A stretch of DNA of 39,231 bases from positions 1-39,231 of the IMG/VR virus record IMGVR_UViG_3300035698_003327; one strand, given 5' to 3'. This DNA is from a virus. This document shows positions 5,156 to 35,463 of this stretch, in pieces. How positions within the stretch are numbered: position 1 is the stretch's first letter; each line of letters begins with the position of its first letter. The position numbers and the translations under genes are program-made. Under the pieces are notes generated by a model that ran no database searches, was not told the origin of the DNA, and worked only from the letters and a program-made list of their open reading frames with translations.

Positions 5156-5554
5156 ATGGCAAACGGACAAGTAATTACAACTGATGGTAAGAAAATAATT
5201 ATAGATAGAGCTTTTAATGCCTCTCCGACTAGAACAACAATTTCTCAATTTAAAGTAGGAACCGGAACAACCACTCCAGCTTTAGCTGATACTGATTTGG
5301 AGATTGCAGTTTCGATTGATGGAGATAATTTTAAGGATTTAGTAACAGGATATCCAACAATAGATTTTAATAATTTACAAGTAACTAGTCGAGCAATACT
5401 ACTTAGTACAGAAGCTAATGGAAATAATTTAACTGAATGGGGCCTAGTTAATTCAGATGGTACACCTCTTTTATTTAGTAGAGCAGTTTTCACTTTAATA
5501 GCTAAAACAAGTTCAATCGAGATAGCTTTCATTGAAAAGGACATAGTAAATTGA
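5156..5554 (+). CDS. small tail fibre / baseplate protein
   Basis: 132 residues: MANGQVITTDGKKIIIDRAF, then an all-beta protein with GLVNSDGTPLLFSRAVF and a C-terminal TSSIEIAFIEKD. Such sequences occur as short tail-fibre or collar proteins next to hub genes. No enzymatic motif. The ATG has only a weak RBS. It ends at a late-type promoter (5553-5569). Confidence 0.55.
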   Translation: MANGQVITTDGKKIIIDRAFNASPTRTTISQFKVGTGTTTPALADTDLEIAVSIDGDNFKDLVTGYPTIDFNNLQVTSRAILLSTEANGNNLTEWGLVNSDGTPLLFSRAVFTLIAKTSSIEIAFIEKDIVN

Positions 5555-5587: not shown

Positions 5588-6013
5588 ATGGCAAGTGAAA
5601 GAGATGAAAATGGAAGATTTGTAAAAGGACATAGTCTTGGAAAGAGATTTAAGAAAGGAGAAACTTCACTAAACAAAGGAAGAAGATACAAATGTAAATC
5701 TTATAATTTAACTGAAAAAGGTAAAGAACAAAAAATTAAAAATCTTGGTTCTTATGCTAAAAGATTAAATAGAAAATCAATAAATAAAAAGGGATATGTT
5801 ATTTCTTATCTTGGGAATAGTAGAACAGGTAGAGAACATATTTCTGTTTGGTTAAGGGCAAATCATTTACATAGGTTGCCAGATAATTGTTGTATACATC
5901 ACCTTGATTTAAATAAAACTAATAATAAAATAGAAAATTTGCAGTTAATGCCTATGTCTGACCATACATCATTTCATAGACAACTACAAATTGGAGGGTT
6001 AAAATTGCAGTAG
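5588..6013 (+). CDS. HNH endonuclease with NUMOD3-like N-terminus
   Basis: 141 residues. The basic repeats GRFVKGHSLGKRFKKGETSLNKG resemble NUMOD3 DNA-binding motifs. The HNH_3-type core follows: EHISVWL, CIHHLDLNKTNNKIENLQL, DHTSFH. It is paralogous to 35068. It sits directly behind a late promoter and RBS and starts ATGGCA. The following fibre gene starts inside its last codons at an apparent ATT GCA. This suggests the HNH gene took over the original promoter, RBS and start of the fibre gene. Confidence 0.88.
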   Translation: MASERDENGRFVKGHSLGKRFKKGETSLNKGRRYKCKSYNLTEKGKEQKIKNLGSYAKRLNRKSINKKGYVISYLGNSRTGREHISVWLRANHLHRLPDNCCIHHLDLNKTNNKIENLQLMPMSDHTSFHRQLQIGGLKLQ

Positions 6014-8905: not shown

Positions 8906-8999
8906 GGCGGGTATGGTAAGAAGCAGCTGACCTTTTTTTGTTTGACTCTTAACTTACATTGAAAGAGAAGCACTAGGGGTTCGACTCCCTTCCTCGCCA
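8906..8999 (+). tRNA. putative tRNA with an insertion in the anticodon loop
   Basis: 94 bases. The acceptor ends (GGCGGGT and CCTCGCC plus A) pair at six of seven positions with one G-U. The T arm is clear (AGGGG-TTCGACT-CCCTT). An anticodon stem TTTTT/GAGAA (8933-8937 with 8965-8969) leaves a 27-base loop, so about 20 bases may be an intron. The spliced loop would then read TTGTTAA, anticodon GTT (Asn), but another alignment gives TGT. The D arm is irregular. Either a functional spliced tRNA or a degenerate one. Confidence 0.5.
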
Positions 9000-9042
9000 A
9001 TATAGCAGGGTAGATTAGTTTGGTTAAATCGCTGGCCTCATA

Positions 9043-9357
9043 AAACAAATGGTAAGAACAAATAAACAAAAACAAAACGATAAGAGATACAGAGAGAAAT
9101 TCAATAAGGAGAAACAAATCTTTTATTCCCAAGTTGGCATAAAATGTGCAATTTGTGGTTCTAAAAAACGACTTGTTTGTCACAGAAAGAGTTTTGAAAA
9201 GCATGAAAGAATTGCTAATTTAAGCCGTCCAAAACTATTGGATGAAAAGATTAGTGATTATGTAAGGCTATGTTATCCGTGTCATTTTGGTACCCATTGG
9301 GTACATAAGTTTTTTGGATTATCATGGAAGCAGATTTTAAATTTGCTTATTTGAGAA
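9043..9357 (+). other. archaeal-type tRNA intron (bulge-helix-bulge junction)
   Basis: 315 bases between nucleotides 37 and 38 of the Met tRNA. The junction bulges TAA (9041-9043) and AAA (9356-9358) flank the helix CTCA (9037-9040) with TGAG (9352-9355). Run of A bases makes the exact cut uncertain by a base. Almost the whole intron is filled by an open reading frame, 9049-9354. Confidence 0.75.
9049..9354 (+). CDS. tRNA-intron-encoded HNH homing endonuclease
   Basis: 101 residues. A basic start (MVRTNKQKQNDKRYREKFNKEK) is followed by CAICGSKKRLVCHRKSFEKH and VRLCYPCHFGTHWVHKFF, the Cys/His frame of an HNH nuclease. The ATG lies six bases inside the intron and the TGA lies in the paired TGAG at the 3' splice helix. 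Presumably it spreads the intron into intronless tRNA-Met genes of viruses or hosts. No RBS is visible. Confidence 0.85.
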   Translation: MVRTNKQKQNDKRYREKFNKEKQIFYSQVGIKCAICGSKKRLVCHRKSFEKHERIANLSRPKLLDEKISDYVRLCYPCHFGTHWVHKFFGLSWKQILNLLI

Positions 9358-9405
9358 AGCCAGAGACCGATGGTTCAAATCCATCCCTTGCTATTTCAAT
9401 GATTT

Positions 9406-10642: not shown

Positions 10643-10750
10643 ATGGTAACAATAACAAAATGTATTAAGTGTAATCGAGATTTAATAATCTGTAAGGATT
10701 GTATTTGTAATAAAATAAATATTTGGCCAAAGAAGAGGAAGAAAAAATGA
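10643..10750 (+). CDS. micro zinc-ribbon protein
   Basis: 35 residues: KCIKCNRDLIICKDCIC with two Cys pairs, then a basic tail (WPKKRKKK). It is first behind an early promoter and ends in an ATGA overlap with the Tad2-like gene. Probably binds zinc and nucleic acid; function unknown. Confidence 0.6.
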   Translation: MVTITKCIKCNRDLIICKDCICNKINIWPKKRKKK

Positions 10751-11157
10751 ACTTTGAAGAAGCAATCAGATTAATAGAAGATGGGAAAAAAGTTTATAGA
10801 GATTGTTGGCAAGTTGGTTCTTATTGGAAATTAGGAAAGGGGATAATCTTGTGGACTGACAATACTCCGGCAAAAATTCATTTAAATCAAATTAAAGCTA
10901 ATGATTGGCAGATTTTTCAACAGACTTTAAGTGATAAAGAAATATCAGGGCCATTGTCAGGTAGTTCTTATTATAGAGAAGATGATATTAAACCATTCAT
11001 TCGTAAGATTATTCGTGGATTATATTTAATTGATTTTAAGTATGGTGGACATATAACTCAATGTGGAGATGTTCAAAGATTAAAGGGCCATATTTTAGAT
11101 GAGGTAAATGATTTAAAAAAATTCATTGAAGCAGAGGTAGGGAACAAATTAATATAA
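10747..11157 (+). CDS. Tad2-like (DUF2829-like) protein
   Basis: 136 residues from ATG 10747, coupled to the previous gene. The first 60 residues follow the DUF2829/Tad2 pattern: MNFEEAIRLIEDGKKVYRDCW, a YW segment, ILWT and a final NDWQIF. Tad2 proteins sequester the signal molecule of the Thoeris defence system. The second half (from about 70) is a separate helical region not seen in minimal Tad2. The assignment is by motif resemblance, and the central SQTDML-like segment is not conserved. The neighbourhood of early micro-genes fits an anti-defence role. Confidence 0.5.
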   Translation: MNFEEAIRLIEDGKKVYRDCWQVGSYWKLGKGIILWTDNTPAKIHLNQIKANDWQIFQQTLSDKEISGPLSGSSYYREDDIKPFIRKIIRGLYLIDFKYGGHITQCGDVQRLKGHILDEVNDLKKFIEAEVGNKLI

Positions 11158-16353: not shown

Positions 16354-16514
16354 AATGCCCTTATAAAAAACTAAAGAAATGTACTAATAAATATGTTGTT
16401 GAGGACTATAGGAGATGTCCACATAAAAATAAATTAGAATGTCCGTTGTTTATTGATTGGATAAATAATTATAAAAAAAATGGAAAAGCCGAAAACAAAA
16501 GGGCAGTGGTATGA
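16350..16514 (+). CDS. Cys-rich micro-protein
   Basis: 54 residues: MKCPYKKLKKCTNKYVVEDYRRCPHKNKLECPLFIDWINN. Five Cys/His positions suggest a zinc site. It overlaps the following HNH gene by 35 bases, and its C-terminal 15 residues have poor composition, so the HNH gene may have truncated or extended it. Confidence 0.45.
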   Translation: MKCPYKKLKKCTNKYVVEDYRRCPHKNKLECPLFIDWINNYKKNGKAENKRAVV

Positions 16515-16833
16515 ATTTAAAAAACTAATATTTGATTTAGATAATAAACCATTAATTAAAGATTCTGATATTAGGAAAATAATAAATCCAAAAGTTAGAG
16601 AGAGAGATAATTTTGAATGTTTTTTTTGTTGTAGAAATATTTTTGATGTAAATGAGATGTATGACTTTGGATGTTCAACAATCCATCATAAGATTCCTTT
16701 GAGGTATAGTGGAGAACATGAGGAAGATAATTTAATAACTGTTTGTCATGAGTGTCACATGAAATTAGAACACTTGATTTCATTAGTAGAAGATAAAGCA
16801 ATTAAATTTACCTTTAATTTTATGAACAAATGA
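16480..16833 (+). CDS. HNH endonuclease
   Basis: 117 residues. VRERDNFECFFCCRNIFDV, CSTIHHKIPLRYSGEHEEDNLITVCHECHMKLEHL form a full HNH motif with the IHH dyad at about 68. It lies just before rusA, whose start overlaps its stop by four bases. A paralogous homing gene rather than part of the resolvase. Confidence 0.88.
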   Translation: MEKPKTKGQWYEFKKLIFDLDNKPLIKDSDIRKIINPKVRERDNFECFFCCRNIFDVNEMYDFGCSTIHHKIPLRYSGEHEEDNLITVCHECHMKLEHLISLVEDKAIKFTFNFMNK

Positions 16834-17377: not shown

Positions 17378-18636
17378 TGGAAGTTAAAAATCCTGTAATT
17401 GAAAAAGAGGAACCTAGACAAGAAGGGACCTTGGAAAAAATTAAAATTAATTCTATTAAGAAATATGCAAATAATGCTAAACTTCATCCAGTAGGCCAAA
17501 TTGAAAAAATAAAGGATTCTATTAAAAAATTTGGATATAAGGATTTTATTGCAATAGATGAGAACAACGTAATAATTGAAGGGCACGGTAGGTTAATGGC
17601 CCTGCAACAAATGTATTCTCCTGAAACTGAAATTGGTGTTGTAAGGATCACTGATTTAAATGAACAAGAAAAACGAGCTTACCGAATCGCACACAATAAG
17701 CTAAACATGGACACAGATTTTGATGAGTCTATTCTTGGCGCAGAATTTAACATGTTAGAAGATTCAGATTCTTTCAATGATACTGGTTTCTCTTCTAAGG
17801 AAATCTCTGCAATATGGGATAATAAAGAAGTAACCGAAGATGATTTCAAAGAACCAAAGGAACTAAAATATACTGTAGAAACAGGCGACGTTTGGCTATT
17901 AGGGACTCACAGGCTAATATGTGGGGATGCAACAAAAAAAGCGGACGTACAAGCCCTAATGGGCGAGAAAAAGGCCAACATGGTACTAACTGACCCGCCA
18001 TATAACGTGGATATTGGAAGGGTACCAAATAAGAACTCTGATAAATTCCCTAATTCTTATGAAAACAGAGCAAACCAAAGAACAATGGTTAACGATGCAA
18101 TGCCCAGAGAAGAATTTGTAACTTTTGTCGATCGATTTACAGATAATTTATTAGTTAGTTGCGATGGGCCACTATATATTTTCATGAGTTGTAAGGAATG
18201 GGGTACAATGATGAGGTCATTTGAAAAATTAGGCGGACATTGGAGCTCAACAGTGATATGGAACAAAAGCACATTTGTATTAAGCAGAAAAGACTATCAC
18301 CCTAAATTTGAACCAATATTATATGGATGGAGAGAGGGTGTAAAAATCAATCACTTAATCGACAGGGCCCAATCAGATGTCTGGGATTTTGATAAACCGT
18401 TTAAATCAGAAGAACATCCAACAATGAAACCTTTAGAATTATGCGAGAGAATGATTAATAATTCTTCAAAGGCAGAAGATATAATTTTAGACCTATTTGG
18501 AGGATCTGGTTCGACCTTAATTGCATGTGAACAATTAAACAGAATATGTTATATGATGGAGTTAGATCCGCACTACTGCGCAGTAATACTAGAAAGATGG
18601 GAGGCACTTACAAATGGCAAAGCTATTAAATTGTAA
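17377..18636 (+). CDS. ParB-nuclease domain fused to N6/N4 DNA methyltransferase
   Basis: 419 residues. Residues ~20-95 are a ParB/Srx-like domain (IKKYANNAKLHP, IIEGHGRLMALQQ). The methyltransferase follows: GDVWLLGTHRLICGDA, catalytic LTDPPYNV at about 205, and the SAM-binding DLFGGSGSTLIACEQL near the C-terminus (about 370-390), that is beta-class order. Common in phages for self-modification. The HNH gene starts inside its last 23 bases. No restriction endonuclease is adjacent. Confidence 0.9.
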   Translation: MEVKNPVIEKEEPRQEGTLEKIKINSIKKYANNAKLHPVGQIEKIKDSIKKFGYKDFIAIDENNVIIEGHGRLMALQQMYSPETEIGVVRITDLNEQEKRAYRIAHNKLNMDTDFDESILGAEFNMLEDSDSFNDTGFSSKEISAIWDNKEVTEDDFKEPKELKYTVETGDVWLLGTHRLICGDATKKADVQALMGEKKANMVLTDPPYNVDIGRVPNKNSDKFPNSYENRANQRTMVNDAMPREEFVTFVDRFTDNLLVSCDGPLYIFMSCKEWGTMMRSFEKLGGHWSSTVIWNKSTFVLSRKDYHPKFEPILYGWREGVKINHLIDRAQSDVWDFDKPFKSEEHPTMKPLELCERMINNSSKAEDIILDLFGGSGSTLIACEQLNRICYMMELDPHYCAVILERWEALTNGKAIKL

Positions 18637-19165
18637 ATATTGTAAAAAAGATTTTTATTCAAAAACTAGAAATTATAAACAAAAATGCTGTTCAAAAAGT
18701 TGTGGTCAGAAATATTCAGTTTTAATAGGAAATAAACCAAAGTTATTCAAAAAAGGAGTTTCTTCATGGAATAGGGGATTAAAAGGAAAATCGAGCCATA
18801 GTTATGGTGTGAAATTTACAAAAATTAGAAAAGAGAATATAGGCAAGGGAATAATAAAATCTTATGATAAAATTGGTAGAAAATCATCAAAAAATAGATT
18901 AATGAGGAAGTCTAAACAATTTATGGAATGGAGAAGAGATGTTTTTGAAAGAGATAATTATACTTGTCAAAAATGTGGTATAAGAAGTAAAAAGGGAGCA
19001 AGGATAATGTTACATCCTCATCACATTATGCATTTAGCAAAATATCCCGAAATCGCATTTAATTTGGATAATGGAATAACTTTATGTTATGAGTGTCATC
19101 AGGAGGCACATTATGGAATTTTTTTAACGGAAAAATTAACAGGAAAGGAGGCAGTGAAACAATGA
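18614..19165 (+). CDS. HNH homing-type endonuclease
   Basis: 183 residues. An N-terminal zinc knuckle (CKYCKKDFYSK, CCSKSCGQKY), a NUMOD3-like motif (FKKGVSSWNRG) and the HNH core (RDNYTCQKCGIRS, LHPHHIMHLAKYPE, TLCYECHQEAH). Closest relative in the window is 2669, with the same domain order in a different arrangement of motifs. It overlaps the methyltransferase end, consistent with insertion at a gene boundary. Confidence 0.9.
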   Translation: MAKLLNCKYCKKDFYSKTRNYKQKCCSKSCGQKYSVLIGNKPKLFKKGVSSWNRGLKGKSSHSYGVKFTKIRKENIGKGIIKSYDKIGRKSSKNRLMRKSKQFMEWRRDVFERDNYTCQKCGIRSKKGARIMLHPHHIMHLAKYPEIAFNLDNGITLCYECHQEAHYGIFLTEKLTGKEAVKQ

Positions 19166-19959: not shown

Positions 19960-20308
19960 AATTACAAAGGAGAAGTTCGCAAAAGCATTATCAGGAACAG
20001 GCGGGATAATGATGAAGATAGCTGAAAATTTAGGATGTTCAAGGCAAGCAGTATTTTATTTCTGTCAAAAGTACGCAGATATAGAACAAGCAAGATTAGA
20101 TGAAGAAGAGAAGATTTTAGATATTGGAGAGAACTCATTATTTGCAAAAGCCAAAGCAGGAGAACCTTGGGCAGTTAAAATGTTATTAAGTACTAAAGGT
20201 AAAAAAAGAGGATATGTTGAAAAGAAAGAACTACAAGTGGAAGCAAATATAACTGATACTTTAACTAAAGCACAATTAGATGCAGCAGTTAAAAGATTAA
20301 CAAAATAG
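19952..20308 (+). CDS. terminase small subunit
   Basis: 118 residues. An N-terminal helix-turn-helix (KEKFAKALSGTGGIMMKIAENLGCSRQAVFYFCQKY) is followed by helices and a segment typical of small terminases (SLFAKAKAGEPWAVKMLLSTKGKKRGY). It lies upstream of the large terminase, separated by a tRNA-like and a structured RNA element. The stop TAG shares its G with the first base of the tRNA-like element. Confidence 0.8.
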   Translation: MTKITKEKFAKALSGTGGIMMKIAENLGCSRQAVFYFCQKYADIEQARLDEEEKILDIGENSLFAKAKAGEPWAVKMLLSTKGKKRGYVEKKELQVEANITDTLTKAQLDAAVKRLTK

Positions 20309-20377
20309 GCCGTGTGGATTAGTGGTAAGTCGTTTGAGTCGCTCTCATTCACGGAGGTTCGATTCCTTCCTCGGCCA
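20308..20377 (+). tRNA. tRNA-like element, identity uncertain
   Basis: 70 bases. Acceptor GGCCGTG/CTCGGCC pairs six of seven, discriminator A; D stem GATT/AGTC with AGTGGTA loop; T arm GGAGG-TTCGATT-CCTTC. The anticodon stem is poor: only TGA/TCA pairs with two U-U mismatches, and by position the anticodon would be CGC with a non-standard G32 and U37. The variable loop is three bases. A decayed tRNA or a tRNA mimic is possible. It could also be a processing signal between the terminase genes. Confidence 0.55.
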
Positions 20378-20379
20378 TT

Positions 20380-20502
20380 GTATCATAGCGATAAAGATAC
20401 AGCATGAAGGGGAACATGTGCTGAAATCCCGACCAGAGAGAGACTGGGATTTGAGGGGGTTTTCCGATGACGGCGAAGACTAGGTAACCTAACTGCCCCC
20501 TC
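20380..20502 (+). ncRNA. multi-hairpin structured RNA between terminase genes
   Basis: Four stems tile this interval: GTATC/GATAC (20380-20384, 20396-20400); CAGCA/TGCTG (20400-20404, 20419-20423); AAATCCC/GGGATTT (20424-20430, 20446-20452); GAGGGGG/CCCCCTC (20453-20459, 20496-20502) enclosing two small hairpins CCG-ATGA-CGG and TAGG-TAA-CCTA. It is GC-richer than its surroundings and has no open frame. It may be a packaging RNA, a pac site, or an RNA released with the tRNA. No known family is recognised. Confidence 0.65.
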
Positions 20503-20512
20503 ATTTATACTC

Positions 20513-35067: not shown

Positions 35068-35463
35068 ATGACATTTAAAAAAGGACAAACTGCTTGGAAT
35101 AAGGGAAAAGGGATGTCTGATGAGACTAAAATAAAGTTAAGTAATTCATTAAAAGGAAGAAAAGCTTGGAATAAAGGTAAAAAATTTTCAAAAGAAATTA
35201 GACAAAAAATAAGTGAGGCACATTCACTTCCAGAAAATTCAACAAGATTAACTGATAAAGGATATAAATTAATTAAAAAGAAAAAAAGATGGATTAAAGA
35301 GCATCATTTAATTTGGTGCAAAGCTAATAATTTTTATAGGATTCCAAGAGGTTGTGTAATCCATCATTTAAATTTAATAAAGACAGACAATAGGATAGAA
35401 AATTTGCAGTTATTAGACAATGGGACACATTCTACATTTCATAACAATTTAAGGAGTTTATAA
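35068..35463 (+). CDS. HNH endonuclease with NUMOD3 repeats
   Basis: 131 residues. Two NUMOD3-like repeats (FKKGQTAWNKGKGMSDETKIKLS and GRKAWNKGKKFSKEIRQKISEAH) precede an HNH_3 core (KEHHLIWCKAN, CVIHHLNLIKTDNRIENLQLL, HSTFH). Close to 5588 in the core. It follows a late promoter and supplies RBS AAGGAG to the next gene, whose ATG overlaps its stop. Confidence 0.9.
   Translation: MTFKKGQTAWNKGKGMSDETKIKLSNSLKGRKAWNKGKKFSKEIRQKISEAHSLPENSTRLTDKGYKLIKKKKRWIKEHHLIWCKANNFYRIPRGCVIHHLNLIKTDNRIENLQLLDNGTHSTFHNNLRSL

Follow-up and report, generated by a model that had tools for sequence, protein, structure and literature searches.

An apparently degenerate tRNA gene and a stretch of hairpins between the terminase genes of a probable archaeal tailed virus

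The 204 nt that separate the terS-like and terL genes of the virus record IMGVR_UViG_3300035698_003327 (the window, 39,231 nt) are best explained as a non-coding insertion in the genome of a probable archaeal tailed virus. The interval consists of a tRNA-like element, which appears to be a degenerate tRNA gene, followed by a 126-nt hairpin part (20378–20503; Table 1). We see about even chances that the tRNA-like element is a cargo gene that punctuates the terS/terL transcript and that the hairpins form a structured terL leader. The main rival is a pseudogene on a tolerant site.

Table 1. Features of the terS–terL junction in the window, and positions of the UCACCUCU-loop hairpin in relatives (loci designated by L numbers)
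Feature	Position	Strand	Stem	Basis
terS-like gene, 118 aa	19952–20308	+		ORF; TAG stop at 20306–20308
Putative degenerate tRNA gene (tRNA-like element), 70 nt	20308–20377	+		ARAGORN; Rfam RF00005
Hairpin 1	20378–20402	+	20379–20384/20396–20401 (6 bp)	Helix list, MFE
Hairpin 2	20402–20419	+	20402–20406/20415–20419 (5 bp)	Helix list, MFE
Hairpin 3	20424–20452	+	20425–20431/20445–20451 (7 bp)	Helix list, MFE
Hairpin 4	20452–20503	+	20452–20460/20495–20503 (9 bp)	Helix list; inverted repeat
terL, large terminase, 505 aa	20513–22030	+		PHROG 38, E 2e-56; Pfam Terminase_6C
UCACCUCU hairpin in relatives	L033 3697; L034 746; L038 108; L040 1135; L049 3948; L058 1491; L059 472			

Results

Layout of the junction

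The upstream gene is terS-like by its position directly before terL and its general sequence character; its product gave no Pfam, PHROG or NCBIfam match, and no relative was found with it as query. The start of terL is backed by relatives whose alignment begins at residue 1. Most of the layout proposed in the first-pass annotation was recovered. The tRNA-like element overlaps the terS stop codon by one base and has a weak anticodon arm, four consecutive stems with almost no linkers follow it in a stretch of raised GC content, and terL begins shortly after the hairpins without a Shine-Dalgarno sequence ahead of its start codon. The statement that the interval holds no ORF needs qualification, as short mechanical ORFs do cross it (53 aa on the plus strand and 51 aa on the minus strand). 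Both run over the tRNA or the hairpin sequence, and there is nothing in their favour.

The tRNA-like element

The element scored 38.2 bits against the Rfam tRNA model (gathering score 29) and was called by ARAGORN as tRNA-Ala with anticodon CGC. It takes the last G of the terS TAG stop as its G1. Six of the seven acceptor pairs are formed, the T-arm and D-arm are fully paired with wobbles counted, and the loops are canonical (T-loop TTCGATT, fitting TTCRANN; D-loop AGTGGTA, with its GG). The anticodon stem has three pairs of the usual five, 27–43 and 28–42 being U–U, position 37 is U, and CCA is not encoded. Alanyl-tRNA synthetase requires the identity pair G3:U70. The element has C3:G70 at this place, so that its identity as tRNA-Ala is doubtful. 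These features suggest a degenerate tRNA gene. RNase P and RNase Z read the elbow and the acceptor stem of tRNAs, both of which are intact here. Searching the interval against Rfam at E 10 returned only the tRNA and one chance riboswitch match, and a search of a phage collection with the interval DNA gave only chance matches to the T-arm.

The hairpin stretch

Hairpin 1 can be extended to a 7-bp helix, TTGTATC/GATACAG, which begins with the base that follows the tRNA and whose last pair competes with hairpin 2. The arms of hairpin 2 are GCATG/CATGT; its loop, GGGGAAC, could pair over 7 bp with GTTTTCC at 20459–20465, a possible pseudoknot. Hairpin 3 has the arms AAATCCCG/TGGGATTT. Hairpin 4, with the arms TGAGGGGGT/GCCCCCTCA and a 34-nt loop, is separated from the terL ATG by TTTATACTC, and it matches the hairpins directly before terL in L036 and L049 in arm composition, position and tail.

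No other 123-nt stretch of the 39-kb window is as GC-rich as the hairpin region (50% vs 33% on average), which stands beyond chance in this respect. By folding energy it does so only weakly. Compared with shuffled sequences, the fold gave z values of −1.3 to −1.4 with no span limit and −2.15 (p = 0.024) with the pair span limited to 55 nt, and about 10% of the tiles of the window reach z ≤ −1.5. The whole 204 nt including the tRNA folds no better than shuffles (z = +0.6).

For the 126-nt part, homologues were sought by exact 21-mer and 20-mer scans of viral_contigs, by blastn-short and nhmmer on the collected loci, by blastn over 50 whole records and by a one-sequence covariance model run on 53 loci and 20 whole records, all of which returned only the window itself. 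Several identities for this part were tried and rejected. A second tandem or degenerate tRNA was ruled out, as no T-loop was found; alignment showed no similarity to the RNA between the two tRNAs of L016; no kinship was seen with the pseudoknotted RNA behind the tRNAs of L011, L031 and L071; and Rfam gave no match to a group I intron core in the interval.

The junction in the nearest relatives

With one exception, the roughly 60 TerL relatives that protein-guided scans yielded come from viral contigs. In the closest, L001 (TerL 81% identical over the aligned part), terS and terL lie 5 nt apart. Among relatives with 74% TerL identity, the genes are separated by 5 nt in L009 and by 1 nt in L010 and overlap in L027 and L028. 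With little or nothing between the two genes in the nearest relatives, the interval is an insertion or replacement in the lineage of the window, and the packaging motor does not require it.

This comparison bears on two functions suggested in the first-pass annotation, a packaging RNA analogous to that of phi29 and a pac recognition element. A phi29-type packaging RNA should be kept wherever the same motor is kept, and homologues with abutting terminase genes had been named in advance as telling against it. The element is missing in L001, L009, L027 and others, and the Rfam search at E 10 linked the interval to no credible RNA family other than tRNA. The pac reading meets the same absence in L001, L009 and L027. 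Both readings are thus unsupported and, as far as the sequences go, unlikely.

The TerL reading frames of L001 (2296–4797), L021 (2789–5335) and L025 (2783–5350) are about 330 aa longer than those of relatives. Inspection of the translations by eye suggested an intein-like insert at the Walker A region, ending in ...THN before S.

tRNA genes upstream of terL

The Rfam tRNA model was run over 50 whole records, 13 of which had a tRNA above the cut-off. Merging two nearly identical records and counting each record only once leaves 12. Five of the 12 (the window, L016, L062, L065 and L066) carry a tRNA in the non-coding gap that immediately precedes terL and makes up about 0.6% of the sequence. 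The enrichment corresponds to p of about 2e-7, or 5e-4 with non-coding space alone as the reference, both values being rough because the viruses are related and the gap lengths partly hand-set. The tRNAs in the gap scored 69.7 and 67.8 bits in L016, 66.3 in L062, 39.5 in L065 and 34.2 in L066. Weaker tRNA-like matches lie in the same gap of L033 and L019, and in L021 a tRNA called by ARAGORN only starts right after the terS stop. Relative to an upstream stop codon, tRNAs start at −1 nt in the window, 0 in L021, +2 in L050, +5 in L019, −10 in L011 and −15 in L065. The gap immediately ahead of terL is thus a tRNA hotspot in this clade.

Other structures were noted in these gaps. L019 1916–1977, between terS and terL, resembles the 5' half of a tRNA without the T arm (16.6 bits). 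In L016, 3441–3526 matches skipping-rope RNA (Rfam RF02924), a tRNA-like relative, at 35 bits, just below the cut-off of 36.7, beside the two good tRNAs; this RNA was not found in the window. Between the two tRNAs of L016, 3668–3760 is strongly folded (z = −3.8), and the loop of its first hairpin, GGTATG, is perfectly complementary to CATACC near the end of the RNA.

A covarying hairpin and other modules in relatives

A hairpin with the loop UCACCUCU was found at the terS–terL junction of six relatives and, less perfect, of L059. Typically, its G-rich/C-rich stem has 7–9 bp and leads into a TTCATACTCA-like tail ahead of the next module or the ATG; TTCATACTCA itself often follows. Over the inner six pairs of the seven sequences, 97.6% of the cells pair and 14 double changes occur, a covariation score matched by no shuffle; the stems were those with the best complementarity on either side of the motif, trimmed by hand, and loop letters were dropped for the count. 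As a control, the same stem search at 25 reverse-strand copies of the motif gave no score above 12 and only one above 8, compared with 11–16 for the six hairpins. The sequence UCACCUC resembles the 3' end of 16S rRNA (anti-Shine-Dalgarno).

The window has no UCACCUCU hairpin, its only CACCTCT lying at 5463 without a GC-rich stem, and a gapped pattern for the hairpin with its tail gave no exact match in viral_contigs. Hairpin 4 resembles the UCACCUCU hairpin only in its G-rich/C-rich arms and the tail TTTATACTCATG; its 34-nt loop is unrelated. Hairpins with a GC-rich stem ending at most 22 nt from a start codon were found at 3 of 47 terL starts (the window, L036 and L049) vs 4 of 403 others (p = 0.03), a modest enrichment.

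A conserved RNA of about 110 nt lies right after the tRNA discriminator base in L011 (1398–1510), L031 (900–1010) and L071 (2609–2500, minus strand). It contains AACATTGCAGGGYAGRAGTRTCCGAGTTCG, and its two long helices would together make a pseudoknot; at the gathering cut-off, L011 had no Rfam match besides tRNA. Further folded RNA-like modules that share GTGNATGCG and GTTGATA occur in the terS–terL gap of L040 (1170–1290) and L043 (3140–3280). Junction elements differ among relatives and so do not point to a single conserved function.

Host and other features of the window

The host is probably archaeal. At 9004–9393 the window carries a tRNA-Met(CAU) with a 315-nt insert at 37/38. CUCA/UGAG, with UAA and AAA on its flanks, makes up a bulge-helix-bulge at the insert junctions, and splicing in silico yields a perfect tRNA. 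This assignment draws in addition on the tRNAs with predicted introns in L031/L032 and L011 and on the portal protein, whose best match by E-value among the matches listed was Halorubrum tailed virus 28. Matches to TerL and other proteins include bacterial phages.

The tRNA-Met insert is almost wholly one ORF (9049–9354) with the CxxC...H...CxxCH spacing typical of HNH endonucleases and no Pfam or NCBIfam match; the arrangement resembles an archaeal tRNA intron with an ORF inside, carried by a virus. Directly before this tRNA, 8907–8999 was read by eye as a second degenerate tRNA-like stretch (12 bits). HNH endonuclease genes are scattered among structural and other genes of the window (5588–6013, 16480–16833, 18614–19165 and 35068–35463), one of them with NUMOD3. 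A weak Tad2-like (Thoeris anti-defence) match at 10723–11157 fell just below the Pfam cut-off.

Discussion

In the favoured explanation, terS, the tRNA-like element and terL would be co-transcribed, and host RNase P and tRNase Z would recognise the intact acceptor stem, T-arm and elbow of the element and cut at 20307/20308 and about 20377/20378. The intactness of the acceptor stem and T-arm is the ground for proposing these cuts. They would free a tRNA-like RNA, separate the terS and terL messages, and leave the terL message with a GC-rich leader of four hairpins without a Shine-Dalgarno sequence. A cut at G1 removes the last base of the terS stop, and therefore release of the tRNA and an intact terS message would be mutually exclusive; processing may affect the expression of terS and terL. 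Among the functions suggested earlier, an RNA released through tRNA ends appears to fit best, the tRNA-like element being the released piece.

Several observations argue for this explanation. The tRNA was found by two methods and its arms are well paired, tRNA genes recur at the junction and their starts hug upstream stop codons, and a GC maximum at the element is what an RNA gene should show in AT-rich surroundings. The near-start GC-rich hairpin at terL and the UCACCUCU hairpins at the junction of relatives were counted on the same side. Counted against it are the 126-nt part without a homologue in 53 loci or exact scans and its marginal fold, the low tRNA score with a nearly absent anticodon stem and U37, and the differing junction elements among relatives.

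In the main rival explanation, a tRNA gene was acquired by chance at a tolerant junction of the late operon and has since become a pseudogene, with the hairpins leftover or incidental and functionless. We regard such decaying cargo as unlikely. It would agree with the low score, the broken anticodon stem and the missing G3:U70, with the lack of the element in the nearest relatives, and with a marginal fold and a 126-nt part that has no homologue. Nevertheless, pairing in the acceptor, D and T arms is good, the GC content of the 126-nt part has stayed at 50% where the genome has 33%, its four stems stand back to back, and the junction of relatives holds high-scoring tRNAs and a covarying hairpin.

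The junction might instead be a dedicated RNA site at which interchangeable modules (tRNA-like elements, anti-Shine-Dalgarno-like UCACCUCU-loop hairpins and other folded RNAs) set the amounts of TerS and TerL by processing and occlusion of the ribosome site. The tRNA-like element and four hairpins of the window would then be a non-homologous replacement doing the same job, a proposal that we consider quite improbable. It is likewise doubtful that the interval encodes a dedicated small RNA for phi29-like packaging or for control of terminase translation, to which the tRNA-like part would give defined ends. Its place between terS and terL and the RNA structures that recur at the junction within the clade, the covarying UCACCUCU hairpin of seven relatives among them, would suit such an RNA, but the nearest relatives evidently package without it, the window lacks the UCACCUCU hairpin, and at E 10 Rfam gave no credible match except the tRNA. 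As a candidate non-coding RNA near packaging genes the element is like the phi29 packaging RNA; it differs from it in having no corresponding Rfam match, in not being conserved in relatives and in containing a tRNA.

Packaging sites are often in or near terS. A DNA-level packaging start (pac or cos) in this inverted-repeat-rich stretch would fit that location, but we consider it very unlikely, given its absence in relatives with a similar terminase and the junction stems of relatives, which keep pairing while their sequence changes completely and so point to RNA rather than protein-bound DNA. A self-cleaving RNA beside the tRNA is barely credible: the 7-bp helix starts at the position of the theta cleavage site (PMC10879173) and the element lacks CCA, as do most theta-associated tRNAs, but no HDV-like or other ribozyme family matched at Rfam E 10 and the first helix closes a local hairpin whose loop has 11 nt rather than taking part in a nested double pseudoknot.

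Mitochondrial tRNA punctuation, in which tRNAs lie between genes and processing at their ends separates the messages, offers a parallel to the processing proposed here. The window likewise has a tRNA wedged between genes, with its 5' end inside a stop codon; its genome is viral, and processing there is only predicted. Theta ribozymes, which are HDV-like and occur mostly in gut phages of Bacteroidota, adjoin phage tRNAs and have their cleavage site at the tRNA 3' end (PMC10879173). They share with the window a structured RNA right at the 3' end of a phage tRNA without encoded CCA, whereas no HDV-like fold was found in the window and its virus is probably archaeal. Archaeal tailed viruses are known to carry tRNA genes, HGTV-1 encoding 36 (PMC8651126). 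The window resembles these viruses in having tRNA genes, some of which have introns, in a probable archaeal member of the Caudoviricetes, and differs in the single degenerate gene inside the terminase pair, lying over the terS stop and followed by a structured stretch. The sections of PMC8651126 consulted do not describe a tRNA hotspot at the terminase junction.

Viral tRNA genes are well known already. In the literature consulted, we found no description of a tRNA wedged in the terminase pair and sharing a stop-codon base, or of a clade-wide preference for tRNAs and hairpins at the terS–terL junction. The covarying UCACCUCU hairpin of the relatives is a new RNA element, concrete enough to be tested. 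If the processing model is true, the junction would exemplify tRNA punctuation in a viral genome and offer a simple means of uncoupling two packaging genes.
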